Source of the DNA: Treponema sp.
Lineage (GTDB): Bacteria > Spirochaetota > Spirochaetia > Treponematales > Treponemataceae
Direction of reading: 5' to 3'
Assembly: GCA_012513125.1 (NCBI GenBank)
Contig: JAAZCS010000171.1
Coordinates: 1-17,374, forward strand
Length of the DNA: 17,374 bases
Shown one piece after another: positions 1-17,374 of this stretch; the stretch's first letter is position 1; each line of letters opens with the position of its first letter. A model generated the notes under the pieces. It made no database searches and had not been told where the DNA came from. It was given only the letters and a program-made list of their open reading frames with translations. The position numbers and the translations under genes are program-made.

Positions 1-90
1 ATATTATTCTCCAGATTATTTCACCGCGCAGTAAGCCGCAAAAAGATTTTCCTTACTCACTTCCATTATTTTTCTACTAGGTATCTTTTT

Positions 91-225
91 CTATCTTAAA
101 CATCTTTCGTCAATTCTTCGGTGCATACTGTAAATGTAATATGTAAAATACTTTCCCCAAAAATTGAGCGCAGTTGGATTCAATGTTTCGCAGTCAACAC
201 CAAGATATCTTATTTTTTCTTCAGT
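91..225 (-). pseudogene. C-terminal remnant of a GNAT N-acetyltransferase
   Basis: The minus strand reads 44 codons ending at a TAG (91-93). The peptide contains GVDCETLNPTALNFWGKYF, followed by YIYSMHRRIDE. The N-P-T-A-x-x-F-W-x-K-Y-F pattern is the familiar C-terminal end of GNAT acetyltransferases. An in-frame TGA lies just upstream and there is no start codon or acetyl-CoA loop, so only the last strand and helix survive. It lies 12 bp downstream of the DUF3795 stop on the same strand, so it may be the tail of a former second gene of that unit. Assignment to GNAT rests on this C-terminal motif alone. Confidence 0.6.
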
Positions 226-237
226 TCAATAACAACT

Positions 238-921
238 TTATTTCCTATATTTTTCAAGTGCTTCCAAAACTTTTTCTGTACTTCCAAGAGCGTCAAAATC
301 CTTAGCGTAGTCAACTCCATTTGCAACAGCATTTTTAATTGTCTCAGAATAAACTTGCTCGCCGTATTTCTTAATTAACAAGCAATATGCTTTCATTGTA
401 AAAGCATTGTCATTTTTAAAGAAGCCTTTGTTACAAGACTTTAATTCGTCACATTCCCAGCAACCTTTAATTTTCTTCTCATTGCAGCAAGTAGCATTTG
501 GACATTTTTTATCTTCAAACAAAGTTGCGAACGAACAGCAATTATAATCACTTCTGCAGCCGCCACACCACTGGCCTAAAAAGCAAAAGTCGCAGTTAAG
601 TCCGCAATAGCAAACTGGATTTAAGCCTTCCCGTCCTTCTTTTACAAACTCATTCTTCAACTTCTTACAGTTTTCTATACGAACGCCATTGTCACCTTGC
701 TCTTTATCAAAAGAAAATTTATTCAAAAGCTCACACGGAAATTTTTCACATTCGCCACAAAATCTCTTCCCTTTGGAAATAGTACAAGAAGCAAGCTCGC
801 ACTTTCCATGAAAAGGATTTCCTTTTGTAGCTACACATCCGCCACAGTTATATTTTTCCTTGTAATCGCATTTAGCGCAATCCAAGCCACAGTAAGTTGT
901 AATTCTTTCTTCACCTAGCAT
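238..921 (-). CDS. DUF3795 cysteine-rich protein, probably metal-binding
   Basis: A 227-aa protein with two copies of a Cys-rich module. The first (about residues 8-66) has CGLDCAKC, then CGGC, and ends in a C-x-x-C-x-x-F-P-C segment. The second (about 104-165) has CGLNCDFC, CGGC and CWEC. This spacing is that of DUF3795 proteins, which are common in anaerobes and have no established activity. The Cys clusters suggest Zn or Fe-S binding, which is inference. No signal peptide or membrane segment is seen. The start is supported by a GAGAGGG ribosome-binding site 5-6 bases before the ATG. The gene looks intact and stands alone; the only sequence behind it is a GNAT remnant. Confidence 0.8.
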   Translation of the reverse strand: MLGEERITTYCGLDCAKCDYKEKYNCGGCVATKGNPFHGKCELASCTISKGKRFCGECEKFPCELLNKFSFDKEQGDNGVRIENCKKLKNEFVKEGREGLNPVCYCGLNCDFCFLGQWCGGCRSDYNCCSFATLFEDKKCPNATCCNEKKIKGCWECDELKSCNKGFFKNDNAFTMKAYCLLIKKYGEQVYSETIKNAVANGVDYAKDFDALGSTEKVLEALEKYRK

Positions 922-1211
922 TTTTATCCCTCTCTAACTTTATAAAATAACTATATCATCTTATTGAAAAAGAGAAAATAAACTTTTTCTCAACAAACAC
1001 ACTGGATTATCCTTGAATCAGAGATTATCCTTCAATATTTTTTTGCGGTGAATAATTGAAAAATACAAGCTACATCTTAGTACAATAGATAGTAAATTTT
1101 ACAACCTTTCATACTAAGTGGTAGTCGCAAAATTTGCGACAGTTGGACACGCCACAGGCGTGCTAAAGAAAAAGCTATATTACCGATTATTTAAACATAA
1201 GAGGTAGGAAA
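922..1211. other. Intergenic spacer between DUF3795 and SinI-type nuclease genes
   Basis: No convincing gene is seen in these 290 bases. Two copies of GATTATCCTT lie 18 bases apart (1005-1014 and 1023-1032). The right half holds the paired hairpins described separately and, at 1201-1204, the GAGG ribosome-binding site of the nuclease gene. The divergent promoters of the two flanking genes must lie here, but no clear pair of -35/-10 boxes could be fixed. Confidence 0.5.
1124..1162. repeat. Two adjacent GC-rich hairpins upstream of the nuclease gene
   Basis: Bases 1124-1140 form an 8-bp perfect stem (GTCGCAAA / TTTGCGAC) around a single A. Bases 1148-1162 form a 6-bp stem (CACGCC / GGCGTG) with loop ACA. 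They sit 50 bases before the nuclease start, in otherwise AT-rich DNA. Neither has a following T-tract long enough for a typical terminator on the plus strand. They could be an operator, an attenuator or a decayed recombination site; the sequence does not decide. Confidence 0.5.
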
Positions 1212-1901
1212 TTGAGTATAGAAAAATATTGTTCTGAAATAATTGAAGAACTAAATCCAAGTTATGATATAGAAGAAACACTACAGGAATCGTTCAAGAC
1301 TGTAATAAAGTATTTAAATCAATATCCTGAAAATCTTTCTTTGAGCTCAAAGAAGGAGTCACTTGATGTAACAACAAAAGATGGAATTACAAAACTCGGA
1401 GTTTCATATTTTCAAAGTTTCTATTCTGCAACAATTCCTCAATTACCACAAACAGTTTCTGATGAAATGGTAAGTATCATCATGAAAAAAGTATTTAAAT
1501 ACTCAGATGAAGAAGCAGAGAAAATAAAAATTTCTCATAAACAATCCATGGCATCAGAAAATGCTGTAGGAACTTTACTAGAAAGGTACTTAGATTCAGT
1601 TCTTAGACCTGTCGGTTGGGCTTGGTGTTGTGGAAACTTCGTTAAAGCAATAGATTTTATCAAATTTGATAATGGGAATTGGTTTGAATTACAAATCAAA
1701 AATAGAAGTAACTCAGAAAATTCTTCCAGTAGTGCAATTAGAAATAATACAAATATTCATAAATGGTATAGAATTGATGCAACTACAGGAAACACAAAAT
1801 GGAACAACCTTCCTGAATCAATGCAAGGTTTAAATCTATCAGAAGAAGGATTTAAGACTTTTGTAGAACAATATATTGCTGAAAATCTTAAATCCATATA
1901 A
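1212..1901 (+). CDS. Type II restriction endonuclease, SinI family (predicted GGWCC)
   Basis: A 229-aa protein that I recognise as the SinI/Eco47I family. The central block has an AIDF segment (D148), a FELQIKNR segment (E159, Q161, K163) and then NSENSSSS (168-174). That is a PD-(D/E)XK-type core, with D148 and the Q161-x-K163 pair as likely metal and catalytic residues. Conserved E116 and E124 precede it. The length matches the family, about 230 aa from memory. Its stop is one base from the stop of the convergent m5C methyltransferase, which protects the same site. The start is TTG, preceded by GAGGTAGG at 1201-1208; no in-frame ATG lies just upstream, and a weak start suits a restriction enzyme. 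The predicted specificity is inferred from family resemblance and partner type. Confidence 0.72.
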   Translation: MSIEKYCSEIIEELNPSYDIEETLQESFKTVIKYLNQYPENLSLSSKKESLDVTTKDGITKLGVSYFQSFYSATIPQLPQTVSDEMVSIIMKKVFKYSDEEAEKIKISHKQSMASENAVGTLLERYLDSVLRPVGWAWCCGNFVKAIDFIKFDNGNWFELQIKNRSNSENSSSSAIRNNTNIHKWYRIDATTGNTKWNNLPESMQGLNLSEEGFKTFVEQYIAENLKSI

Positions 1902-1902
1902 A

Positions 1903-3351
1903 TTAAGCACTAAAGTTTAATTCAGGTTCATTAACTTTTTTTTCTGCCATAGCTTTTTTCCGTTTTTTTGCCATTAGTTCTTTAAAAGAAACATTATCTG
2001 TAAAAACATATCTGGAAAAGGGAAAATCTACTGGTGGCAAAACTAGTTTTTCATTGGAAACAAGTTTTACAACTTGTTTTCCTATTGCAATTCCTAAGCT
2101 AACAGGAACTGCATTTCCAATTTGTCTATAAATATCTTTCATTTCACCAAAGAATTTCCAATCATCTGGGAATTCTTGAATACGCATATACTCTTGAATA
2201 CTTAAAGGTCTGTTTTTATCAGGATGGCACAAATCTGTGGCTGGCATTGTTGGGTCAGTAACGAGCGTTGGGGATGGTTCATTCCAACCTAATCGTCTAA
2301 AAAATCCTGTTTTTCCGCCACCGAGTTTTAATTTACTTCCCATTGCTTCAAATTGAACTTCCTTTGGCAAATTTTTCCAATATTGCCCTTCTTTTAACAT
2401 TCTAAAAAACTTCAAACGTTTTTCGGGAAAATTCATGTAAATTTGTTGAGATTCATCAAGATTAGAAATTACATCTTTTACAGTTTTCCATTTTGGTAAA
2501 CCGAAATTTCCATGTTCATCATTTGTCGGTGGTAAATAAGGAACTTTTTTTCCATCACGCGAGCAGAAGAAAACTACACGCTCACGTTTTTGTGGGGCAC
2601 CATAATTTGCAGCGTTGTACAAATTAAAAGTAACAGTATAACCACCTTCTTCGAGTTTACTTAAAATATGTACTAAAGCACCACCTTTTAATTCTTCTGG
2701 TGTTCTTGGAGAAAATCCAAAACGTTTTTCTACTTCTGGACTTTCGAAAGGAGCAGATAAAATACAACGCACATTTTCGATTACTGCAAACTTTGGGCGT
2801 AATTCCAAAATTCTATCAATAAATGTTAAAAATACGTTTCCACGAATATCGGTAAAACCCTTTCTTTGTCCTGCCGTACTAAAAGCTTGGCAAGGTGGAC
2901 CGCCAATAATTAAATCAATTTCTTGTTTTTCAGATATATTTGCAAACTTTCTTATATCTGCTCCTGTGTAATTGTTTATATCACCAATTAAGCCAATGTC
3001 AGGACGGTTTAATAAAACAGTTTTTCGTGTATTTGGTTCTATTTCAGAAGCGAGAATTGGAGTAATTCCGGCTTTTTCAATACCATAGTCAAGCCCTAAA
3101 GCACCGGAAAAAAAACTTAAAGCAACAATTTCGGGTAATTGTTCATTTTTTCGTATTTGGTCAGGAATATTTTTACTTAGTTTAAATATGGTTTCTTTAT
3201 CGTTTAAAAAAGATGGTTCTATAACCCAAGTTTTACCAACTTGAGAAGCGTGAATTCTATTTTCACGTATTAATTTCCGTACATACTGAGGTGTACATTT
3301 TAAAAAAGAAGATATATCTTCTACTGATAGGTACTGCTTGTTTGTTTCCAT
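1903..3351 (-). CDS. DNA (cytosine-5) methyltransferase, SinI type, with N-terminal helix-turn-helix
   Basis: Methylates cytosine-5 in the site cut by the neighbouring SinI-type nuclease. From the ATG at 3351 it is 482 aa. Residues 6-47 form an excisionase-like helix-turn-helix (SVEDISSFLKCTPQYVRKLI). The methyltransferase follows: motif I FFSGALGLD (80-88), motif IV GGPPCQAFS with nucleophile C154, motif VI ENV (E192), motif VIII QKRERV, and motif X with YRQIGNAVP. The FFSGALGLD form of motif I is the SinI/HgiBI type. The frame is open for 63 more codons upstream, but that stretch carries the promoter and, on the other strand, a transposase remnant. The ATG at 3351 starts just before the HTH domain and fits the promoter. 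The HTH domain may let the enzyme regulate its own promoter (inference). Confidence 0.85.
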   Translation of the reverse strand: METNKQYLSVEDISSFLKCTPQYVRKLIRENRIHASQVGKTWVIEPSFLNDKETIFKLSKNIPDQIRKNEQLPEIVALSFFSGALGLDYGIEKAGITPILASEIEPNTRKTVLLNRPDIGLIGDINNYTGADIRKFANISEKQEIDLIIGGPPCQAFSTAGQRKGFTDIRGNVFLTFIDRILELRPKFAVIENVRCILSAPFESPEVEKRFGFSPRTPEELKGGALVHILSKLEEGGYTVTFNLYNAANYGAPQKRERVVFFCSRDGKKVPYLPPTNDEHGNFGLPKWKTVKDVISNLDESQQIYMNFPEKRLKFFRMLKEGQYWKNLPKEVQFEAMGSKLKLGGGKTGFFRRLGWNEPSPTLVTDPTMPATDLCHPDKNRPLSIQEYMRIQEFPDDWKFFGEMKDIYRQIGNAVPVSLGIAIGKQVVKLVSNEKLVLPPVDFPFSRYVFTDNVSFKELMAKKRKKAMAEKKVNEPELNFSA

Positions 3352-3386
3352 AACGAAACAATAGTATAATGCAGTGCGTTTGTCAA
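3351..3386 (-). promoter_or_regulatory. Leaderless promoter of the SinI-type methyltransferase
   Basis: On the minus strand, TTGACA (3386-3381), a 17-bp spacer and TATTGT (3363-3358) place the expected start point at 3351, the A of the ATG. An alternative -10, TATACT (3368-3363), would leave a leader of about 5 bases. Either way there is no ribosome-binding site. The spacer contains the heptamer GCACTGC, also present at the hhaIM-like promoter with the same 2-base distance to a TATACT. Confidence 0.6.
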
Positions 3387-3396
3387 CAAATAAAAT

Positions 3397-3531
3397 GTTA
3401 ATAAAAAACCAACGGTCAATCCAGTCAACGAATCGCTGAACGGCTGGATAAAGAAGGAGCTGTTCATAGACTTCAATATTGAGAAGAGCAAAAGTGTAAA
3501 AGAAGATGTCGCCAAGTACATCGAATTCTGA
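3397..3531 (+). mobile_element. Remnant of an IS3-type transposase (OrfB C-terminal part)
   Basis: A 44-codon open stretch ends in TGA at 3529-3531. It encodes NESLNGWIKKELFIDFNIEK, followed by a segment ending in VAKYIEF. This matches the last part of the integrase core of IS3-family OrfB: the N-E-x-x-N-G-x-x-K-x-E segment with the catalytic Glu, then the helix that normally runs into Y-N-x-x-R-P-H. Translation stops exactly where that Y-N-x-x-R-P-H segment should be. No start, N-terminal half or clear inverted repeats are seen, so this is a relic. It overlaps, on the opposite strand, the spurious upstream extension of the methyltransferase frame. Confidence 0.6.
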
Positions 3532-3748
3532 TAGGAACACCTAAGTTTTTTCAGTATAGGGTGTTCACTTCTATTGACCGGTACAAGGCAACCTTTCCGC
3601 CATAAAAGTGTAAAATTATACTAGTTTTTCCCCATAAAAAGTGTTATTGCCACTGAAATTCTCGTCATCAATAATGCTTTTTCAACATACAAGGGAAGCT
3701 TTACGAAACTTAGTACAGAGACAATACACTGGACAATATACAAACTCG
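3532..3748. other. Intergenic stretch between IS remnant and repeat array
   Basis: No gene is supported here. The first part is probably the former 3' end of the insertion sequence, since it directly follows the transposase relic. From 3714 a plus-strand frame runs without a stop into the repeat array, but it has no convincing start. Confidence 0.4.
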
Positions 3749-3862
3749 TAACGATTTTGGGGTAAATTGCCATTATTTACTTGACGATTTTGGGGTAAAA
3801 ACGCATAATATATCTAACGATTTTGTGGTATTTGGACATAAAATACCTAACGATTTTGAGGA
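3749..3862 (+). repeat. Four direct repeats at an exact 33-bp period before the ATPase gene
   Basis: The 16-base unit TAACGATTTTGGGGTA occurs at 3749-3764, at 3782-3797 (TGACG...), at 3815-3830 (TGTGGTA end) and, degenerate, at 3848-3862. The start positions are 33 bases apart every time. The 17-base spacers between units are unrelated to each other. The last copy merges into the ribosome-binding site of the ATPase gene. Read in the frame starting at 3750, the array encodes an 11-residue repeat (NDFGVNCHYLL, DDFGVKTHNIS, NDFVVFGHKIP, NDFED) that ends in TGA. Both a DNA-binding role and a peptide relic are possible. Confidence 0.8.
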
Positions 3863-3868
3863 TTGAGG

Positions 3869-5203
3869 ATGAAAATATTCAAACGAAAGCTATATAACAA
3901 ACTACAAGAATGGAAGAATGATTCTCAAGGAAGAACTGCACTTCTTATAGAAGGCGCAAGACGAATAGGCAAGTCCACTCTTGTAGAGCAATTTGCGGAG
4001 AATGAATATGAAAGTTACATCCTAATTGATTTTTCACAAGCTCCTGAATCAATAAAAAAACTTTTTACAGACGTATCTAACTTAGACTATATTTTCCTTC
4101 AGCTGCAACTTCAGTACAAAACTGACTTGCACAAAAGAAAATCTGTTATAGTCTTTGACGAAGTTCAGCTTTACCCTTTGGCACGCCAGGCAATAAAATC
4201 CTTAGTAAAAGATGGCCGTTATGATTACATTGAAACAGGCTCTCTTATCTCAATAAAAAAGAATGTACAAAATATTCTTATTCCAAGCGAAGAAAGAAAA
4301 CTATCTATGTGGCCAATGGATTACGAAGAATTTCTTTGGGCGTTAGACGATACAACAACTATTCCACTTTTAAAATCTGTTTGGAAATCAAAACAATCTT
4401 TAGGTGAACAAACGAATAGAAAACTAATGCGTGATTTCCGTTTGTATATGTTGATAGGTGGAATGCCACAGGCCATTAATGAATATCTTGAAACAAACAA
4501 TTTTAAAAATGTTGATTTAGTAAAACGAGATATCCTTTCTTTATATGAAGATGATTTTAGAAAAATTGATTCAACAGGAAAAATATCTTTGCTGTTTGAT
4601 TCAATTCCAGCTCAATTAAACAAAAATACTTCCCGGTATCAAGTTTCTGGTGTTTTGAAAAATGAACGGGCAGATTCAATTCTTGATTTGATTGCAGAGC
4701 TAAAAGATTCAAAAACCGTTCTTGTTTCCTACAACGCAAACAATCCAAACGCTGGGCTTTCAAATAACAAGGATCTTGGGAAATTTAAGCTATTCTTGGC
4801 GGACACAGGATTATTCACAACACTTGTTTTTAAAGATAAAGACTTTACAGAGAATATAATCTATGAAAAACTTCTTAATGACAAGCTTCAAGCAAATCTT
4901 GGCTCTCTGTAGGAAAATATTGTTGCACAAACATTAACAGCAAATGGCTACGAGCTTTTCTATCATACTTTCTTAAACGAGAAGTCACACCATAATTATG
5001 AAATCGATTTTTTGCTCACAAGTAAAAATAAAATCTGTCCTATTGAAGTGAAATCAGGTCAACGCACAGTCCATCCTTCACTGGACGCTTTTTGTACAAA
5101 ATACTCTAGCCGTATTTTACATGAATATCTTGTACACACAAAAGATTTCAAGAAAGACAACGCCATAGAATGCCTGCCTGTTTACATGACTCAGTTTTTA
5201 TGA
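3869..5203 (+). pseudogene. AAA-family ATPase with DUF4143 domain, interrupted by an in-frame TAG
   Basis: The frame from the ATG at 3869 encodes about 445 residues of a P-loop ATPase of the AAA/DUF4143 group. Walker A is GARRIGKST (29-37) and Walker B is VIVFDE. The C-terminal part has an EIDFLL...CPIEVKSGQ segment, a D-x(n)-E-x-K arrangement seen in these proteins. Codon 348 (4910-4912) is TAG, in the middle of GSL-x-ENIVAQ, where a tyrosine (TAT/TAC) would be one base away. Downstream the same frame continues to a normal TGA-terminated end. GAGG at 3858-3861 supports the ATG; the TTG at 3863 is less likely. The function of these ATPases is unknown. The TAG may be a real nonsense mutation, a sequencing error or a suppressed codon. 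Confidence 0.8.
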
Positions 5204-5293
5204 TGGGAGACTGACTACAATAATACAGATAATAACCAGAATTTTCTATTTATTTTCTTTTGTAAAACCACAATCAAAATCCATTTGTTCCCG

Positions 5294-5815
5294 TTACTTC
5301 AACTTTTCCCATTCATCACGAGTGATTGCATACGCAACAGTTGTTTGCTTTTCATCATCAATAAACTCATGAACTTTTTTCATTCCATTAGACATTGCAG
5401 TTGCACTTGAAGCAACATTCGTCTGTTTCATATATGAATAAACTTTATTGAATGGAGTGTTTTCAAAAATCCAATCACGGCATTTTCTTGCAGCTTCCTT
5501 TGCGTAACCTTGATGCCAATACTTTTTATTTATGTGATAGCCAATTTCAGGTTTAATTATTCCATCAATATTCTGCATTGTAATTCCACAGTCGCCAATC
5601 ATTAGGTCACTGCTTTTTTGAACAACCGCAAACAGACCAAAACCAAATGTTTCATAACGGTCAATGTTTTTTGTTATCCAGTTTCGTACACGCTTTTCGT
5701 CAAACGTATATGGATAATGCTGCATAATTTCCGAATCTCCCAAGATTTCGTACAACGCGTCATAGTCATCTGGATTAAGTTCACGTAAAATCAATCGTTC
5801 TGTTTCTAGTTGCAT
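5294..5815 (-). CDS. GNAT acetyltransferase, RimJ/RimL type
   Basis: Predicted to move an acetyl group from acetyl-CoA to an amine. The 173-aa protein starts with LETERLILREL, the usual opening of RimJ/RimL-like (Acetyltransf_3) enzymes. It has the acetyl-CoA loop YWHQGYAKEAARKCRDW around residues 99-115, and a C-terminal strand with the N-V-A-S-S-A pattern. The length is normal. The ATG lies 2 bases beyond the toxin stop and its GGGAAG ribosome-binding site is inside the end of the toxin gene, so it is probably co-transcribed and coupled with the toxin-antitoxin pair upstream. The substrate cannot be read from the sequence: ribosomal protein, antibiotic or tRNA-bound amino acid are all possible. 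Confidence 0.85.
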   Translation of the reverse strand: MQLETERLILRELNPDDYDALYEILGDSEIMQHYPYTFDEKRVRNWITKNIDRYETFGFGLFAVVQKSSDLMIGDCGITMQNIDGIIKPEIGYHINKKYWHQGYAKEAARKCRDWIFENTPFNKVYSYMKQTNVASSATAMSNGMKKVHEFIDDEKQTTVAYAITRDEWEKLK

Positions 5816-6543: not shown

Positions 6544-8365
6544 ATGGATATTGAAAATAAGCAGAATGCAGATAATTCGTTTTCAGATGGGAATACTCTA
6601 AATTTTAATTCAAATAAAGAGAATCATATCTTAAAAAATATGTATTTTAAAATACTCCCGCAACAGATGATTTATGGTTTCGTTTTTATGCTCAATACGA
6701 TTATTGACAGCTTTATAACTAGCCGTTTCTTAGGATCAGAAGCTATGGCCGCTTTAGGATTTTATACACCTGTTTCAAATGTTTTATTTCTGTGTTATGT
6801 ATTTATTACAGGAACGCAGGTTATGTGTGGAAACAGCATTGGCAGAGGAAAAAGTCGTAAAACTGTTTCTATTTTTTCAACATGTGTTGTTGTCATTTTA
6901 ATATATTCTCTGTTGTGCAGTGTATGTATGTACTGCTTTTCAAATCAGATAGCAGGACTTCTTGGTGCACAAGGAATATGCCACAAAATGCTTTCAGATT
7001 ATCTGGCAGCAATTTCATTTGGTGCTGTCGTTATGATGCTTTATTCACTCTTTATGGGATTCCTTCAGATGAATAACAGAACGGATCTTTTCAGAATAAC
7101 TCTTGGAGTGATGATAATTTCGAACTTTGCTCTTGATATACTTTTTGTATCAAAACTGAATATGAGGATGTGGGGGCTCGGTCTTGCAACTACTGTAAGC
7201 AATCTGTTGTCGGCACTTATTGCAGCCTTAGGAGTTATTAAGTCAAAAAGAAAACCTGTTGTTTATTTTATGCCCAAACAATTATGTTTTAACAGACTTC
7301 CAGAAATGACAAAACTTGGTTCGACCTAAATAGTATTTAATCTTACAGTTGCACTTAGAGCATATATTCTTAATATTATTCTGATGAGTACGGGTGGCAC
7401 CAATGCGGTGGCTGTAATGACGGTACTTAATCTAACATTGAGTTTTATCGGAATGATTCCCACAGGAGCATCCAATACAGTACTTTCACTTGGAAGTATT
7501 TTCAATGGCGAAAAGAATCGGAACGCATTGGAAAATTTACTTAGATTTTCAATAAAAGTATCAACATTACTGTCAATTGTTGCAATAATTGCAGTTTCCT
7601 TATTTGCACCTTTTATTTCGGAAATTTTTTATCAGAAAGGAACGGAAGTCGAAAACATGACAATTGTTATGCTTAGAATTGTTATTTGGTGGAGTATTTT
7701 TTTCATCAATAAGCGGAATAATTACAAAAATATATCAGTGCAGAGGGAAAATCATGATAAGCAATATCTTTTCACTTGCGGATAATATTCTGGTAGTTGT
7801 ATTTGCATTGCTGTTTTCACGGATTATAGGAACTGTAGGAATATGGGCAGCCTATCCAATGGCAGAAATAACAGCTCTTCTGATAATTATTGTATATTTA
7901 TGGAAAGAATCGAAAAAGTTTCCATCTTCTGCTAGTGATTTTGCAGGGACAAGAACAGGTTTTGAAGTATCTGAAGATGATATGCTTTCAATTGAAGTAA
8001 GAACTATGGATGAAGTAGTAAAGGTTTCCGAATGTATAATGCAGTTCTGCAAAGAGAAGCATACACCTTCTAAAACAGGATTTTTTGCAGGACTTGCAAT
8101 TGAAGAAATGGCAGGAAATATAGTTCGCTACGGATTTGAAGATGGAAAAAAGCATGAAATCAGTATTTTTGTCATAAAGGAAAAAGATAACCTGACAATA
8201 AGAGTAAAGGATAATTGCAAAGCGTTCGATCCGATTCATTATATGGAACAGTTCAGTGACGATGATTCAATTAAAAATATAGGAATAAAACTAGTGGAGA
8301 ATACGGCAAAAGATATGAAATATCAGCGTATTCTTGATCTTAATTACCTGACAATATGTTTGTGA
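6544..8365 (+). pseudogene. MATE-family transporter fused to an RsbW-like ATPase domain, disrupted
   Basis: If the two lesions are repaired this is about 606 aa. The first 450 residues or so have the many membrane helices of a MATE transporter, with paired blocks such as PQQMIYGFVFMLNTIIDSF and LNLTLSFIGMIPTGASNTV. The last 135 residues form a GHKL ATPase of the RsbW anti-sigma kinase type: LAIEEMAGNIVRYGF (N box), IRVKDNCKAFDP (G1) and NIGIKLVENTA (G2). Lesion 1 is an in-frame TAA at 7327-7329. Lesion 2 is at the seven-T run 7697-7703; six T would restore the frame into SSISGIITKIYQC. The STAS and SpoIIE genes beyond the cassette are its likely partners. The ATG at 6544 is preceded by a possible -10 TAGAAT (6498-6503). 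As sequenced, no full-length product can be made. Confidence 0.8.
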
Positions 8366-8401
8366 TTATATGTGTTTTTTTATAAAATAATGTTATACGG
8401 A

Positions 8402-8425
8402 CGGCTCACTGAGCCGCTTTTTTTT
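8402..8425 (+). terminator. Rho-independent terminator at the left edge of the cassette
   Basis: A stem CGGCTC (8402-8407) / GAGCCG (8411-8416) with loop ACT is followed by C and eight T (8418-8425). It lies 9 bases inside the inferred cassette border and directly before the hhaIM-like promoter. It would stop transcripts arriving from the MATE gene. Confidence 0.8.
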
Positions 8426-8436
8426 ATAAATAATGA

Positions 8437-8472
8437 TTGAAATTTATAGCGCACTGCGCTATACTGTATCTA
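8437..8472 (+). promoter_or_regulatory. Leaderless promoter with GCGC-containing palindrome, hhaIM-like gene
   Basis: TTGAAA (8437-8442), a 17-bp spacer and TATACT (8460-8465) put the start point at about 8472, the A of the ATG. The 19-bp palindrome TATAGCGCACTGCGCTATA (8445-8463) fills the spacer and overlaps the -10 box; its arms match 9/9 around a central C. It contains two GCGC sites, the predicted target of the encoded methyltransferase. Repression or methylation feedback is inference; the boxes and the palindrome are directly visible. Confidence 0.75.
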
Positions 8473-9476
8473 TGATTGAAATACAAGATAAAACTTTGAC
8501 TGACTATAAGTATATTGACCTCTTTGCAGGTATTGGTGGTTTTCATTTAGCACTTTCTTCTCTAGGAGCAGAATGTGTATATGCAAATGAATGGGATTCT
8601 TTTGCACAGAATGTCTATAACGAAAATTTTGGAATTGAACCAGAGGGTGATATTACAAAGGTTGATGAAAATACAATTCCCGACCATGATATTTTATGTG
8701 CGGGCTTTCCTTGTCAGGCATTTTCAATCAGTGGTAAACAAAGAGGCTTTGAAGACAGTCGTGGAACTCTATTTTTTGATGTTGCTCGTGTTGTAAAAGC
8801 TAAAAGGCCAAAAGTTGTATTTATGGAGAATGTAAAAAACTTTGCAACACATGATAATGGAAATACGCTTACAGTAGTAAAAACTACAATGGAGCAATTA
8901 GGCTACACTTTTTATGAAAAGGTATTGAACGCCGTTAATTACGGAATGCCTCAAAAAAGAGAGCGTATTTATATGGTTTGTTTCAGAAATGATTTAGCAA
9001 ATACTGTTTTTTCATATCCAAAACAATTCAAACTTACAAAACATGTCGAAGATTTTCTGCTTGATGACGAAAGTCTTGTAAAAGATTTATATGTAGAAAG
9101 AGAAGATACATTTTACAATGGAGAGAAAGACGACAAATATAGCGATACATCTATCCGCTTGGGAATTGTGAATAAAGGTGGTCAAGGTGAAAGAATTTAC
9201 AGTACAAAGGGAATTGCAATTACACTTTCAGCATATGGTGGCGGTGTCTTTGCAAAAACAGGTGGTTATCTTGTAAATGGACGACCTCGAAAATTACATC
9301 CGCGAGAATGTGCAAGAATTATGGGGTATCCTGACACTTTCAAAATAAGTAAAAATAAAAATCAGGCATACAAACAGTTTGGAAATTCTGTTGTCGTAGA
9401 TGTTCTTCAATATATTGCTATTGAAATTGGTAAAACACTTGCAGTTCAAGAATCTGCAAAATCCTTAAGTGCGTAA
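8472..9476 (+). CDS. hhaIM: DNA (cytosine-5) methyltransferase, M.HhaI homologue (GCGC)
   Basis: Methylates the inner cytosine of GCGC. The 334-aa protein resembles M.HhaI along its length, starting MIEIQDK (M.HhaI: MIEIKDK). That settles the ATG at 8472; an in-frame ATG 39 bases upstream would have to be read through the promoter. Motif I is DLFAGIGG (16-23), motif IV GFPCQAFS with nucleophile C81, motif VI ENV with E119, motif VIII QKRERI (161-166), motif X QFGNSV. C81 and E119 have the same numbers as in M.HhaI. The target-recognition region GGQGERIYSTKGIAITLSAY keeps Q238 and R241, matching Gln237 and Arg240 of M.HhaI. The specificity call is therefore firmer than usual. It is the first gene of the cassette and overlaps the next by one base. 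Confidence 0.95.
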   Translation: MIEIQDKTLTDYKYIDLFAGIGGFHLALSSLGAECVYANEWDSFAQNVYNENFGIEPEGDITKVDENTIPDHDILCAGFPCQAFSISGKQRGFEDSRGTLFFDVARVVKAKRPKVVFMENVKNFATHDNGNTLTVVKTTMEQLGYTFYEKVLNAVNYGMPQKRERIYMVCFRNDLANTVFSYPKQFKLTKHVEDFLLDDESLVKDLYVEREDTFYNGEKDDKYSDTSIRLGIVNKGGQGERIYSTKGIAITLSAYGGGVFAKTGGYLVNGRPRKLHPRECARIMGYPDTFKISKNKNQAYKQFGNSVVVDVLQYIAIEIGKTLAVQESAKSLSA

Positions 9477-9760
9477 TGAAAGAACTTGATTTTAGAAAAT
9501 GGCTTAATGTAAATGGAGTTTCAAAAAAAATGCAATCTGATTTTGTTTCAAGGCTAAAACGCCTTGAAACAAAACTTGAAATCTTCGATATTGATGAAGA
9601 ATATAAGAAAGATAAATGTGAAAAACTTCTGAAATATCTTTCTAATGGTTGCAAAGAAAGCCCCTACTCAAAAACTCTTGAACTTTTGGGAACATCCAAC
9701 CAACATACAGTTCTAAAATATGCGGTAAAGAAATATATTTCATTTTTGGAATCTATTTAA
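9476..9760 (+). CDS. 94-aa helical protein of unknown function in the HhaI-type R-M cassette
   Basis: I do not recognise this protein with certainty. Its ATG shares a base with the methyltransferase stop (TAATG), so it is translationally coupled to hhaIM. It has 94 residues, is rich in charged residues and is predicted helical: FRKWLNVNGVSKKMQSDFVS, then a RLKRLETKLE helix, then ILEx-free acidic DIDEEYKKDKCEKLLKYL, and a C-terminal KYAVKKYISFLES helix. The general look (F-x-x-W-L, S-R-L, a final Y-x-x-F-L) recalls small helical domains attached to nucleases or the core-binding domain of recombinases, but that is impression only. It has no obvious helix-turn-helix of the C-protein type. Its last 8 bases overlap the 3' end of the convergent nuclease gene. 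Confidence 0.7.
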   Translation: MKELDFRKWLNVNGVSKKMQSDFVSRLKRLETKLEIFDIDEEYKKDKCEKLLKYLSNGCKESPYSKTLELLGTSNQHTVLKYAVKKYISFLESI

Positions 9761-10577
9761 ATTCAAGCTTGAATTTTTCTATATCTCTTTCTTGCTGATC
9801 TTGTACAAGAGAAATTGAGAAAATAACATTTGGATTGGAAGTATTGGAAAGTCGTGTCACTTTGAAAATATCTTCTTTTTCATTTTTGAACTGATATGTA
9901 TGCGATTCTCCTATTATTTTATAGGTCATAGGCTTGGCATTCATTTTTACAAAAACATACTTTCCATCTTTGTAAATTTTCTTTATGGAAAAACCTTCTG
10001 AAGTAGCAGCTTTTTCAATTTCCCGATAATCGTTCTCGCTTGGATTAGCAGAACCGCTCTTTTTTCTTCTGTACAATGCAATTACATCAAAATAGTTTTG
10101 GAAATGCTCAATTGGAAAAATAACAAAATTGTCTGACTTCATATTATCATTTCCGACTTCTTTCTCAATTATGAAATATTTTACACCTTTAGCTTTATAG
10201 AATTCACAAATCCAAGAATAAAAATATGATTTATCCATTAACAATTCAGTACCATCAGTTCCAGGATTTTTATATCTATCAAAATCCTCTGTCATTTTAT
10301 CAAGAATTGCCTCTGATTGGATATTTTCAGGGTAAGCATTTGCTTTTGAGTAATCAAAAGAATTCGAATCTGTATTGGTAAAAGCAACAAATTGTCCGCA
10401 TTGTGCTTGTTTCATTTTTGATTCAATGTAAAAAATCGCAATTCCACTTTTCGTTAGCAGAATATCAGATTTTGTTGAATCCGATCCACCTTCCGCTTCA
10501 AAATTATATTTGTTGTCTGCGAAGTTCGCCTTTAAATATTTTAAGCATTCTTTTTCACAAATTTGCCAGTTTTCCAT
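9753..10577 (-). CDS. hhaIR: Type II restriction endonuclease, R.HhaI homologue (GCGC)
   Basis: Predicted to cut GCGC. The 274-aa protein shares long blocks with R.HhaI as I remember it: GGSDSTKSDILL, FYIESKMKQAQCGQFV, VIFPIEHFQNYF, RRKKSGS and a late NPNVIFSISL. The PD-(D/E)XK site is S37-D38 followed 13 residues later by E52-S-K54; R.HhaI has SD-x11-EAK. R.HhaI is a monomeric nicking-style enzyme of about 258 aa with catalytic, recognition and DNA-binding sub-domains, and this protein covers all three. The ATG follows AGGAAGGG, which lies across the stop of the upstream methyltransferase gene 11 bases away, so the nuclease is coupled to that gene and not to hhaIM. It converges on the 94-aa gene with an 8-base overlap. 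Confidence 0.9.
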   Translation of the reverse strand: MENWQICEKECLKYLKANFADNKYNFEAEGGSDSTKSDILLTKSGIAIFYIESKMKQAQCGQFVAFTNTDSNSFDYSKANAYPENIQSEAILDKMTEDFDRYKNPGTDGTELLMDKSYFYSWICEFYKAKGVKYFIIEKEVGNDNMKSDNFVIFPIEHFQNYFDVIALYRRKKSGSANPSENDYREIEKAATSEGFSIKKIYKDGKYVFVKMNAKPMTYKIIGESHTYQFKNEKEDIFKVTRLSNTSNPNVIFSISLVQDQQERDIEKFKLEFK

Positions 10578-10588
10578 TTTACCCTTCC

Positions 10589-11548
10589 TTAAAAATTTTT
10601 TTTTATACTATTTCCAAGTGTATTTATAACATTTACAGTCATTGCATTTCCTGCCTGCATTAACAAATGCCTATCAGAAACAGTTCCTTTTACTTTATCG
10701 GCATATTCCTTTGGAAAACCTTGTAGCAAAAGGGCTTCGTACCCTGTTAATTGATAAATTTCTCCATTTTTTACATATAAAATTCCATCTCGTTGAGAGC
10801 GTAACGTCGGACATCTTTCTTCATAAATCCTCAAATCAGACATTCGTGTATCAAGGATTTTCCCTTCCATTTGTTTCAAATCTTCAACTGTATATTTTCC
10901 ACAATTTGTTGGATTGTTCAGATAATAATGTAAGATTTCTAAACGCTCTGCTGATGCTTTATTATTATCAATCAAATAATTTTTCAACGAAGGCTTTTCG
11001 ATAGTTTGTGGCCATTGAAATTCATCAATACTTTTATTCAAAGATTTATTCACACCAATAAAATAAACTCGTTGCCTCATTTGTGGTACTCCGTATTCAA
11101 GGCTTGTAAGGACTTTATAAATGATATCATATCCAGAGTCGTTTAATTCATTAAGAATTATTTTTAATGTTTCGCCATTGTCATGTGTTACAAGTCCTCT
11201 TACATTTTCCAAAATAAAGCATTTTGGTTGAGTTTCTTTCATGATTCTTGAAAAATGAAAAATGATTTGTCCTCGTGAATCATCAAATCCTGTTTTTCTG
11301 CCCATAACAGAGAAGGTCTGACATTGGAATCCTGCTATAAGAAGGTCAAAATTTGGTAAAGTTTCAGTTTTTATGTTTTTTAAGTTTCCAAAATTCTTTT
11401 CATTTTCTGTATTAAATAATTGTTTGTAAGTTGCAACTGACAAACGGCTTGTATCGGAATAACCAACAGACTTTAAGCCACATTGTTCTAGTCCTAATCG
11501 ACCTCCGCCAATTCCAGAGCAAAAATCAAAGAAAGTAGATATTTCCAT
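10589..11548 (-). CDS. DNA (cytosine-5) methyltransferase of unknown specificity, with altered PCQ motif
   Basis: A 319-aa m5C methyltransferase from the ATG at 11548; the 14 codons upstream carry the likely promoter and add no domain. Motif I is FDFCSGIGGGRLGLE (7-21), motif VI ENV (E114), motif VIII QMRQRVYFIG and motif X AGNAMTVNV. Motif IV reads GFQCQTFS: the catalytic C76 is present but the normally invariant Pro is Q75 (CAA where CCA is expected, one base change). The acidic residue after motif I is D32 where Glu is usual. The target-recognition part (around LDTRMSDLRIYEERCPTLR) is unlike M.HhaI, so another target is expected. It is the promoter-proximal gene of the operon with the R.HhaI-like nuclease. 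It may be impaired or specialised. Confidence 0.85.
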   Translation of the reverse strand: MEISTFFDFCSGIGGGRLGLEQCGLKSVGYSDTSRLSVATYKQLFNTENEKNFGNLKNIKTETLPNFDLLIAGFQCQTFSVMGRKTGFDDSRGQIIFHFSRIMKETQPKCFILENVRGLVTHDNGETLKIILNELNDSGYDIIYKVLTSLEYGVPQMRQRVYFIGVNKSLNKSIDEFQWPQTIEKPSLKNYLIDNNKASAERLEILHYYLNNPTNCGKYTVEDLKQMEGKILDTRMSDLRIYEERCPTLRSQRDGILYVKNGEIYQLTGYEALLLQGFPKEYADKVKGTVSDRHLLMQAGNAMTVNVINTLGNSIKKNF

Positions 11549-11583
11549 ATAAATTTTGTATGATATTTTGAAATAAAATGCAA
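11548..11583 (-). promoter_or_regulatory. Possible leaderless promoter of the third methyltransferase
   Basis: TTGCAT (11583-11578), a 17-bp spacer and TACAAA (11560-11555) would place the start point at 11548, the A of the ATG. Each box matches the consensus at only 4 of 6 positions. No ribosome-binding site precedes the ATG, which agrees with a leaderless start. Confidence 0.35.
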
Positions 11584-11601
11584 TATACAAGGAAAAGAAT
11601 A

Positions 11602-11632
11602 TTTTTTAATCGAGTCAAGCTCGATTAAAAAA
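11602..11632. terminator. Long hairpin with T/A tails, possible two-way terminator
   Basis: A perfect 13-bp stem, TTTTTTAATCGAG (11602-11614) and its complement (11620-11632), with loop TCAAG. The T-run on the right-hand arm of the minus-strand read and the A/T-rich base would allow termination from either side. It lies just upstream of the methyltransferase promoter and mirrors the terminator at the cassette's left edge. Confidence 0.6.
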
Positions 11633-11871
11633 TGAATTGAACCTTAGGGCTTGAGCGAAGAATTGGTTGTAAAAAAGGAATATTTCAGAAAACAAGTCGA
11701 GCTTGCTTTCTGAAAGGATATTTAACTTTAGGGCGATGCAATGTAGCGGTAGTATGCGGCTATACGCCGCTGAAAAAGTGAACTTAAAAATTGAAGCGTT
11801 GCTTCTGAAAAATACAAATATTTTCATTAAAGAAGAATAAAAAAAATGGGAATATTTATAAGAAATAATTT
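11633..11871. other. Hairpin-rich non-coding tail of the cassette
   Basis: No convincing gene in about 240 bases. Three further hairpins are seen: 11683-11715 (9-bp stem TTTCAGAAA/TTTCTGAAA plus CAAG/CTTG, loop TCGAG), 11756-11770 (GCGGC/GCCGC, loop TATAC), and 11793-11805 (GAAGC/GCTTC, loop GTT). A near-repeat AACCTTAGGGC / AACTTTAGGGC occurs at about 11640 and 11722. A minus-strand open frame of 97 codons crosses the region (11615-11908), but it runs through the palindromes and into the attC, and I regard it as spurious. Confidence 0.55.
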
Positions 11872-11938
11872 CGTATAACAAGAGGTTCGTAGCCGACAAC
11901 GCAGTCAAGCTGCGTTGCGGTACAACCCGTTGTTAAAT
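11872..11938 (+). other. attC: attC-like recombination site
   Basis: A long imperfect hairpin with attC organisation. R'' is GTATAAC (11873-11879) and R' is GTTAAAT (11932-11938), which fits GTTRRRY. AACAA (11877-11881) pairs with TTGTT (11930-11934), GGTT (11884-11887) with AACC (11924-11927), CCG (11893-11895) with CGG (11918-11920). Then CAACGCAG (11897-11904) pairs with CTGCGTTG (11910-11917), loop TCAAG. A11896 and a base near 11888-11889 are unpaired on the same arm, like the extrahelical bases of attC sites. R'' departs from RYYYAAC at one position. Confidence 0.72.
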
Positions 11939-11980
11939 TAAAGTAAGAACTAAAATTAATAAGAGAAGGTTGAATATAAT

Positions 11981-12277
11981 ATGGATATTGAAAAAAAACA
12001 AGATGAATCAAAGTTGTTTATAAAAGTAAGCGGAAGACTTGATACACAGACATCACCGCAGCTGGAAGAGTGTGTCAAAGGCAAACTTGATGGTATTACT
12101 GAACTCAAAATTGACATGGCAGATTTGGAATATATTTCAAGTGCTGGGCTTCGTGTTCTTCTTATGATATCAAAGATAATGAAAAATCAGGGAAGTTTTG
12201 TAATCTGCAACATAAATGAAACGGTCAAAGAAGTTTTTGATGTAACAGGTTTTTCTGATATACTGACAGTTGAATAA
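11981..12277 (+). CDS. STAS-domain anti-sigma factor antagonist (RsbV/SpoIIAA type)
   Basis: A 98-aa single-domain protein of the SpoIIAA/RsbV family. In this family the unphosphorylated form binds an RsbW-type kinase and frees its other partner. The phospho-acceptor loop is DLEYISSAGLRVLL, with S53/S54 as the candidate serine, and the opening IKVSGRLDTQTSPQLEE is typical. Its natural kinase is probably the RsbW-like domain fused to the MATE protein at 6544-8365, or the ATPase domain of the phosphatase next door, which also ends one base beyond this gene on the other strand. The N-terminus MDIEKKQ resembles the MDIENKQ of the MATE protein. The ribosome-binding site (AGAAGG) is rather far, about 11 bases, from the ATG. 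Confidence 0.9.
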   Translation: MDIEKKQDESKLFIKVSGRLDTQTSPQLEECVKGKLDGITELKIDMADLEYISSAGLRVLLMISKIMKNQGSFVICNINETVKEVFDVTGFSDILTVE

Positions 12278-16297: not shown

Positions 16298-17374
16298 ATG
16301 GATATTTTAATTACAAACAGCAAATTTTCTGAGATAAAGATTCAGTTCAATTACAACGAATCATTTATCTCGGCAGTAAAAAAAATTCCCGGACGAAAAT
16401 GGAATCTCAAAGACAAATATTGGACAATTCCAGACACACAGCAAAATGCTGATTCACTTTTGTCGCATCTTTATTCAACCCATCTATTTGATATAGATTG
16501 TTCTTTGCTATCACAAGAAGAAAGCATAATAAAAATGAAAAATATCTTGAAAGCAAAACATTATAGCGAAAGGACGCAATCAACATATATAAAATGGGTT
16601 GAGTCATTTCTAAAAAAATATTGTGAAATACCACAGACGATATTAGGACAAAAGCAGATTAATAATTTTCTCACAGAGCTTGCAACAAAGAAAAAGGTAA
16701 GTGCGTCAACACAGAATCAAGCACTTGCAGCCCTACTCTTCTATTTTAGATTTGTAAAAGGAGACAACCCGATTGAACTTAACGATGTGATAAGAGCAAA
16801 ACGTCCGCTACGACTTCCGGTAGTTTTTAGCAGAGAAGAAATTAGTAAAGTATTTGTCCAGCTTGAAGGCGACAAGAAACTTGCGGCACAATTACTATAT
16901 GGAACGGGAATGAGGTTGAATGAATTATTAAATCTAAGAATTCTCGATATAGATTTTGATAGAAATGAAATTACGATTCACAATGGAAAAGGTTCAAAAG
17001 ACAGACTTGCGATTCTTCCACAAAAACTAAAACTCAAAATACAAAAACATATAGAACAGGTCAGGCAAATTCACAATAAAGATTTAGCAGAAGGATGGGG
17101 AAAAGTTTTTTTATCAGAAGCATTAAAACGGAAATATCCAAATGCATCAAAAGAATTTAAATGGCAATGGCTTTTCCCTCAGAAAACACGATGGATAAAC
17201 AAAGAGACAGGAGAACAAGGCCGGTGGCACATGGACGAATCAGTTCTGCAAAGAGCAGTTCAATTCGCAATAACACGAGCAGGAATCGATAAAAAAGCAA
17301 GTTGCCATACATTTCGGCACTCGTTCGCGACCCATTTGTTAGAAAGTGGCTACGACATACGGACGATACAAGAG
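16298..17374 (+). CDS. intI: Integron integrase (tyrosine recombinase), 3' end beyond the window
   Basis: The frame is open for 359 codons to the window edge. Residues 75-165 are the core-binding domain (HYSERTQSTYIKWVESFL). The catalytic domain shows box I GTGMRLNELL with R206 and HTFRHSFATHLLESGYDIRT with H337 and R340. Between them, about 277-295, lies ALKRKYPNASKEFKWQWLFP, the extra patch found in integron integrases and absent from XerC/D. The last His and the nucleophilic Tyr fall outside the window. Residues 1-66 are an added N-terminal domain (YNESFISAVKKIPGRKWNLK, then YWTIP), longer than classical IntI and resembling the HARP-type module of some recombinases. The plus-strand reading matches the cassette orientation, as in the inverted integrons described from treponemes. 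No attI is recognised on its 5' side. Confidence 0.92.
   Translation, partial: MDILITNSKFSEIKIQFNYNESFISAVKKIPGRKWNLKDKYWTIPDTQQNADSLLSHLYSTHLFDIDCSLLSQEESIIKMKNILKAKHYSERTQSTYIKWVESFLKKYCEIPQTILGQKQINNFLTELATKKKVSASTQNQALAALLFYFRFVKGDNPIELNDVIRAKRPLRLPVVFSREEISKVFVQLEGDKKLAAQLLYGTGMRLNELLNLRILDIDFDRNEITIHNGKGSKDRLAILPQKLKLKIQKHIEQVRQIHNKDLAEGWGKVFLSEALKRKYPNASKEFKWQWLFPQKTRWINKETGEQGRWHMDESVLQRAVQFAITRAGIDKKASCHTFRHSFATHLLESGYDIRTIQE

Follow-up and report, generated by a model that had tools for sequence, protein, structure and literature searches.

The window analyzed here, the entire 17,374-nucleotide contig JAAZCS010000171.1 of a Treponema sp. genome (contig C392 of genome G000), carries at positions 8393 to 11932 a block of four genes that makes up a complete HhaI-type restriction-modification (R-M) system and is bounded as an integron cassette, with an attC site at its right end. 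The block sits 4.4 kb upstream of an integron integrase gene, intI, which reads away from it. The source genome is fragmented (406 contigs that total 2.27 Mb, at 80.6% completeness), and the genomes compared with it are mostly binned assemblies. The features of the locus are the following.

8393 to 11932, no strand: whole cassette, 3540 bp, delimited by the attC fold, the complementarity to R'' and the limits of homology with locus L034
8392/8393, no strand: left junction, AATAATG^TTATACGG, with a flank that is neither attC nor attI-like
8393 to 8417, plus strand: 5' leader of the cassette, 25 nucleotides, TTATACGGACGGCTCACTGAGCCGC, a terminator-like hairpin followed by eight T
8445 to 8463, plus strand: inverted repeat TATAGCGCACTGCGCTATA ahead of the M.HhaI gene; its GCGC sites, at 8449 and 8456, are the only two that the cassette has
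8472 to 9476, plus strand: M.HhaI-type C5-cytosine methylase (ATG at 8472, reading frame open from 8433; 523.5 bits to PDB 10mh; PF00145)
9476 to 9760, plus strand: 94-residue protein, with no family above the cut-off and 38 homologues
9753 to 10577, minus strand: R.HhaI-type restriction endonuclease (PDB 6uke, E 3.7e-38, residues 3 to 258; PADLOC REase_II, E 1.1e-41)
10589 to 11548, minus strand: second C5-cytosine methylase (reading frame open from 11590; PF00145, E 9.7e-69; 156 to 158 bits to M.HhaI)
11594 to 11868, plus strand: cassette tail of about 280 nucleotides, noncoding, with several palindromes, standing before attC
11872 to 11938, plus strand: attC, from its fold and from covariance model R1 (76.8 bits, the site being in the training set), with the crossover between G 11932 and T 11933
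11932/11933, no strand: right junction, CCGTTG^TTAAATTAAAG
16298 to 17374, plus strand: intI (TIGR02249, 367.6 bits against a cut-off of 265), cut by the contig end; a neighbor of the cassette and not part of it

The block was recognized as an integron cassette from a folding attC with R and L boxes, from ends that complement each other and from its occurrence as an array unit in a second genome. The sides of an attC site are named R'' and L'', and the first bases of the block, TTATACG (8393 to 8399), are the exact reverse complement of 11872 to 11878, on the R'' side. For attC, folding energies were -18.7 kcal/mol on the bottom strand (z -5.90) and -19.5 kcal/mol on the top strand (z -5.41), and none of 200 shuffles equaled either value; since both strands fold equally well relative to shuffles, the fold alone does not pick the strand. 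Joining the cassette ends as in a circle brought the bottom-strand energy to -24.1 kcal/mol (z -7.35), and the outer arm then ran for 10 bp without interruption. The original prediction had placed the cassette ends at 8393 and 11932, had pointed to an attC-like structure in the bottom strand of 11872 to 11938 and had described a perfect 10-bp arm on end joining. The seven-base complement, the attC fold and the homology limits at 8391 and 11935 bear out these ends, and both the structure and the arm were reproduced.

Sites were scored with a covariance model of 64 positions built from 20 treponeme attC sites, including the window's own, three of L034 and five others from G000. At E ≤ 1, the model found a single attC in the window, at 11873 to 11938, and none to the left of the cassette. 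A looser attC pattern gave seven matches in the window versus 1.93 expected, so a simple pattern by itself is insufficient. The pattern TAACAA...TTGTTA, tried for the attC sites of G000, was also too loose (29 matches per strand versus 57 in the reversed control), and the covariance model was used instead. Across G000, at least 16 attC sites were found at E ≤ 0.01 over 10 contigs, the window's among them, which is a lower bound because 150 of 781 first-look candidates were scored. No Rfam family matched the window at gathering scores, and a sub-threshold match to BSR0626 within 8300 to 12000 (E 0.5, over the tail and attC) was judged to be chance.

A scan of one genome per species returned three relatives of the endonuclease, and one of these loci, L034 (G200:C151; CAMGTC010000151.1, uncultured Treponema), holds the whole block: blastn aligned 8391 to 11935 of the window with 5699 to 2157 at 99.07% identity. 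This span equals the 3540-bp block plus a few bases common to the junctions. In L034, the block is part of an array: attC sites of 74.3 and 88.5 bits flank it, another attC follows at a greater distance, and the reading frames beside it differ from those of the window. Of the 200 genus genomes searched, 139 had a match to part of the cassette, in many cases just to the tail or to a piece of methylase, and G200 alone, besides the window, gave a full-length match at 99%. The translation-GTPase loci of G000 and G200 are only 70.4 to 80.4% identical over five aligned pieces. Set against this background, the 99.07% identity of the cassette shows that it was recently exchanged as a unit, noncoding parts included, between two treponeme species. 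In the plasmid collection, 69 records matched partly and none covered 80% of the query, and no second copy of the cassette was found in G000 itself. The suggestion in the original prediction that 8393 to 11932 moved as one unit is thus supported by the boundaries shared with L034, and the search for the same block elsewhere between G^TT borders was positive, the 3540-bp block standing in the L034 array with attC on both sides. The pair represents a natural and recent cross-species transfer of a complete defense system as one cassette, which lies in an array in one species and apart in the other.

Homologues of the HhaI methylase and endonuclease stand side by side in the cassette, and its genes form two converging pairs, M.HhaI with the 94-residue protein against the second methylase with R.HhaI. 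An HhaI-type system had been named for this locus from the outset, and the system is present; what needed amending concerns the methylases, as the M.HhaI homologue is the plus-strand gene and the minus-strand methylase is a second, different C5-methylase. Compared with the HhaI system of Haemophilus (PDB 10mh and 6uke), with which it shares the homologous methylase and endonuclease, the treponeme module adds the 94-residue protein and the second C5-methylase and is packaged as a cassette. The gene for the 94-residue protein adjoins that of M.HhaI in L034, L107, L108, L109 and L110 (63% identical in the last) and was not found in L035. By its homology, the module would cut DNA with unmethylated GCGC, the HhaI specificity, and would thereby provide phage protection and maintain itself. 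A second, decayed HhaI-type locus was observed in G000 (L110; G000:C195:1697-3529), with the methylase in two frames and the endonuclease in pieces. An attC-like pattern beside it (G000:C195:3541-3596) scored 17.1 bits (E 0.46) and was rejected.

The inverted repeat TATAGCGCACTGCGCTATA also occurs in L034 and L108 and in L036/L107, a single locus that was retrieved under two handles; the modules of L107 and L108 are only 77 to 78% identical to that of the window. In L109, the end of the M.HhaI gene where the repeat would lie is missing. A promoter-like pair, TTGAAA-17-TATACT (10 of 12 positions), brackets the repeat, and the leader hairpin with its eight T is a terminator-like match (8402 to 8416), one of four such matches where 1.5 were expected. 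Because the leader is terminator-like and two of the genes face backwards, the cassette genes would be expressed from their own promoters. The M.HhaI promoter would probably be held down by its own product, acting through the two GCGC sites of TATAGCGCACTGCGCTATA.

A second complete R-M cassette was found in the same genome (L114, positions 1987 to 5580, on G000:C399), between attC sites at 1987 to 2052 and 5517 to 5580. Its genes, all in one direction, encode a C5-methylase, a BpuJI-type endonuclease (PF11564, E 1.4e-104) and a second C5-methylase. R-M genes in integrons are on record for Vibrio and Xanthomonas in PMC12409362 and PMC12444791, and therefore R-M cassettes are a known kind, of which four genes on two strands lie at the large end. 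The content of the window's cassette had been called unusual, and this stands for the four genes on two strands, which exceed the three then reported as the maximum between two attachment sites in PMC3607928, and falls for the R-M content, given the published cases and L114. Those published Vibrio and Xanthomonas cassettes likewise hold type II restriction genes, described in the same excerpts as size-reduced, whereas here a 3.5-kb module has opposing operons and a second methylase. The chromosomal integron cassettes of Treponema, as PMC3607928 describes them, share with this one the attC type, an intI directed toward the array and exchange of cassettes between strains; the window's cassette differs in its four genes on two strands, in its complete R-M system and in standing alone upstream of intI. 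Among the literature matches listed, titles and abstract openings name no treponeme HhaI cassette, leader or tail, subscription papers lying mostly outside this scope.

The position of the cassette was then compared with known target types. In an attG event, the target of the cassette is a G^TT in the chromosome outside any attI or attC; such insertions were reportedly described by Loot et al. in Nature Microbiology in 2024. An attI-like stretch, ending in a sequence that resembles GATACGGAGAAATWWTG^TTA, was chosen downstream of intI in 13 of 15 intI loci, two loci being without a candidate and L125 contributing the second of its two candidates. On the resulting 13-site matrix, the left flank of the cassette scored -15.5, compared with 8.2 to 32.5 for the sites left out in turn, and it ranked 63rd among the 614 GTT positions of the window. 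The target is thus neither attI nor attC. Moreover, treponeme intI genes are transcribed toward attI and the cassettes, with arrays downstream of intI, according to PMC3607928, and the cassette lies on the intI side where no array is expected. Since the left side has neither attC nor attI and intI reads away, the best reading, and the simplest account, is that one cassette was inserted at a nonarray chromosomal G^TT in an attG-like manner. In mechanistic terms, IntI would excise the cassette as a circle via the folded attC, and the circle would recombine with the chromosomal sequence AATAATG^TTAAATTAAAG, neither attC nor attI, in an attG-type event. Comparable cassette insertions are described for other bacteria in PMC12444791 and PMC12901181; the likeness lies in a cassette whose chromosomal G^TT belongs to no attI or attC, and the copy in the window differs as a probable natural case in a treponeme. 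If the lone copy did arise by attG insertion, the integrons of gut treponemes are able to introduce R-M systems into the chromosome.

Taken as a whole, the best explanation is an HhaI-type R-M cassette at 8393 to 11932, exchanged between species and inserted here by IntI in an attG-type event, to which we assign a probability of about 0.85. Several observations weigh against parts of it. No empty insertion site was seen, the flank genes having distant relatives only. The contig, part of a fragmented bin, breaks off within intI and does not show the array of this integron, and a misjoined contig is possible. As for the module, motif IV, a named motif of C5-methylases, reads FQCQ in the second methylase and FPCQ in L034, L107 and L108, so this enzyme may be inactive or its sequence misread. 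As for its control, promoter-like matches in the region are at chance level (18 versus 16.9), and the GCGC inverted repeat was not found in L035, L110 or L111.

The cassette could be the last survivor of a former array that lost the attC of its left neighbor, or attI. The short distance of 4.4 kb to intI on this contig, and other mobile or defense genes in the region (the SinI-type R-M genes at 1212 to 3540), make such an array conceivable; we nevertheless consider it unlikely, because the sequence at the left junction is precisely G^TT with the full leader after it, which random deletion would rarely leave, because the left flank is not attI-like and because intI reads away from the cassette, which puts it on the opposite side from treponeme arrays as described in PMC3607928. 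An assembly chimera, in which an array cassette was wrongly joined to the window's flanks, is more doubtful still. A binned assembly, together with attC and tail sequences repeated across the genus, would make such a join easier, but the left junction has no repeat beyond the G^TT motif, no direct repeat of at least 22 bases spans both ends, and the cassette was not found twice in its own genome.

Least probable of all, and by a wide margin improbable in itself, is a movement of the R-M module alone by insertion with long target duplication, the attC being incidental. Insertions of R-M genes with long target duplication are described in PMC3031569, and the four-gene copy of G025 (L107, 78% identity) resembles them in its perfect 78-bp flanking direct repeat (4384 to 4461 and 7588 to 7665), so the module can travel without attC. 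The window has no such repeat, with no direct repeat of at least 22 bases at the cassette ends. Furthermore, the unit common to G000 and G200 takes in the leader, the tail and attC, its limits being the attC crossovers, and these shared boundaries contradict a movement of the module alone.

The copies outside cassettes bear on how the cassette was made. L107 and L108 (the latter from G108) have all four module genes, at 78 and 77% identity, and match only cassette bases 26 to 3181 and 44 to 3158, respectively, and bases 1 to 25 and 3202 to 3540 are not shared. No attC was found in either at E ≤ 1 within the 11 kb fetched, and L108 has no flanking repeat like that of L107. From the 78-bp repeat and the cassette-free copies, it seems that an HhaI module able to move on its own came to be framed by leader, tail and attC; the reverse order, a module losing its frame, is possible.

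Leaders were sampled at 31 cassette starts behind plus-oriented attC matches of at least 39 bits in L117, L118 and L034, which represent three genomes. Of the 31, 30 could form a hairpin of 5 bp or more, against 26% expected from shuffles, and the stems were of 14 different kinds; CACTG was present in 29. The tail (11594 to 11868) had matches in 80 of the 200 genus genomes and none at that threshold in the other 120, and its part from 11670 to 11868 matched in 62 of the 390 genomes searched in the order, spread over 10 of 91 genera, mostly over short stretches outside the genus. Loci with the tail include L115, L116, L117 and L152 to L181. Thirty tail loci were taken from the top of the matches, among them the window and its twin in G200. 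An attC followed within 150 bases downstream of the tail in 21 of these; two of the nine loci without one are at a contig end. Of 26 segments upstream of tails, 24 were compared; besides a locus that had been retrieved two times and a cassette shared by two genomes, the only matches were two short ones of 40 and 63 bases, indicating that the genes before the tails differ. In 14 of the 26, a frame of at least 50 residues runs in the same direction before the tail, with its stop 0 to 11 bases ahead in 12 cases and 44 and 99 bases ahead in two; nine have no such frame (including the window, whose last gene is reversed), and three are too short. Within 11670 to 11870, 13 of 30 predicted pairs had changed on both sides among 24 chosen tails. 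These observations would fit a shared chassis, in which treponeme cassettes consist of a 25-nucleotide hairpin leader and a multihairpin tail of about 280 nucleotides with ready-made gene modules placed between them, the HhaI module giving a before-and-after pair in which cassette bases 1 to 25 and 3202 to 3540 belong to the chassis; we regard this reading as evenly balanced. The leader and tail shared across treponeme cassettes are more novel than the R-M content of the cassette. With unrelated genes standing between a common leader and tail, and with one such module also known from copies outside cassettes, there is a way to study cassette making, and if the chassis reading is true, cassette genesis could be reconstructed from sequence.

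To the left of the cassette, a MATE transporter with a C-terminal HATPase part (6544 to 8365) is broken into three reading frames, its relatives being single frames of about 600 residues; to the right stand a STAS gene and a SpoIIE-type gene. Relatives of the HATPase part matched in 35 of the 200 genomes, many weakly, the best over most of the length being 38% identical. The SpoIIE-type protein, from a large family, matched in all 200, with 45% identity for the best-scoring relative. Searches with these flank genes in the 200 genomes found no genome of the same species and none with identical cassette flanks. Of 20 fetched SpoIIE-type loci, including that of the window, 14 also contained a STAS match, and no MATE match was seen in the other 19 SpoIIE-type loci, with flanks of 1.5 kb at most. 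Further to the left, at 1212 to 3540, a gene for a SinI-type endonuclease converges with one for a C5-methylase that includes a helix-turn-helix part, and no attC accompanies the pair. At the other end of the window, intI starts about 78 residues ahead of its TIGR02249 match.

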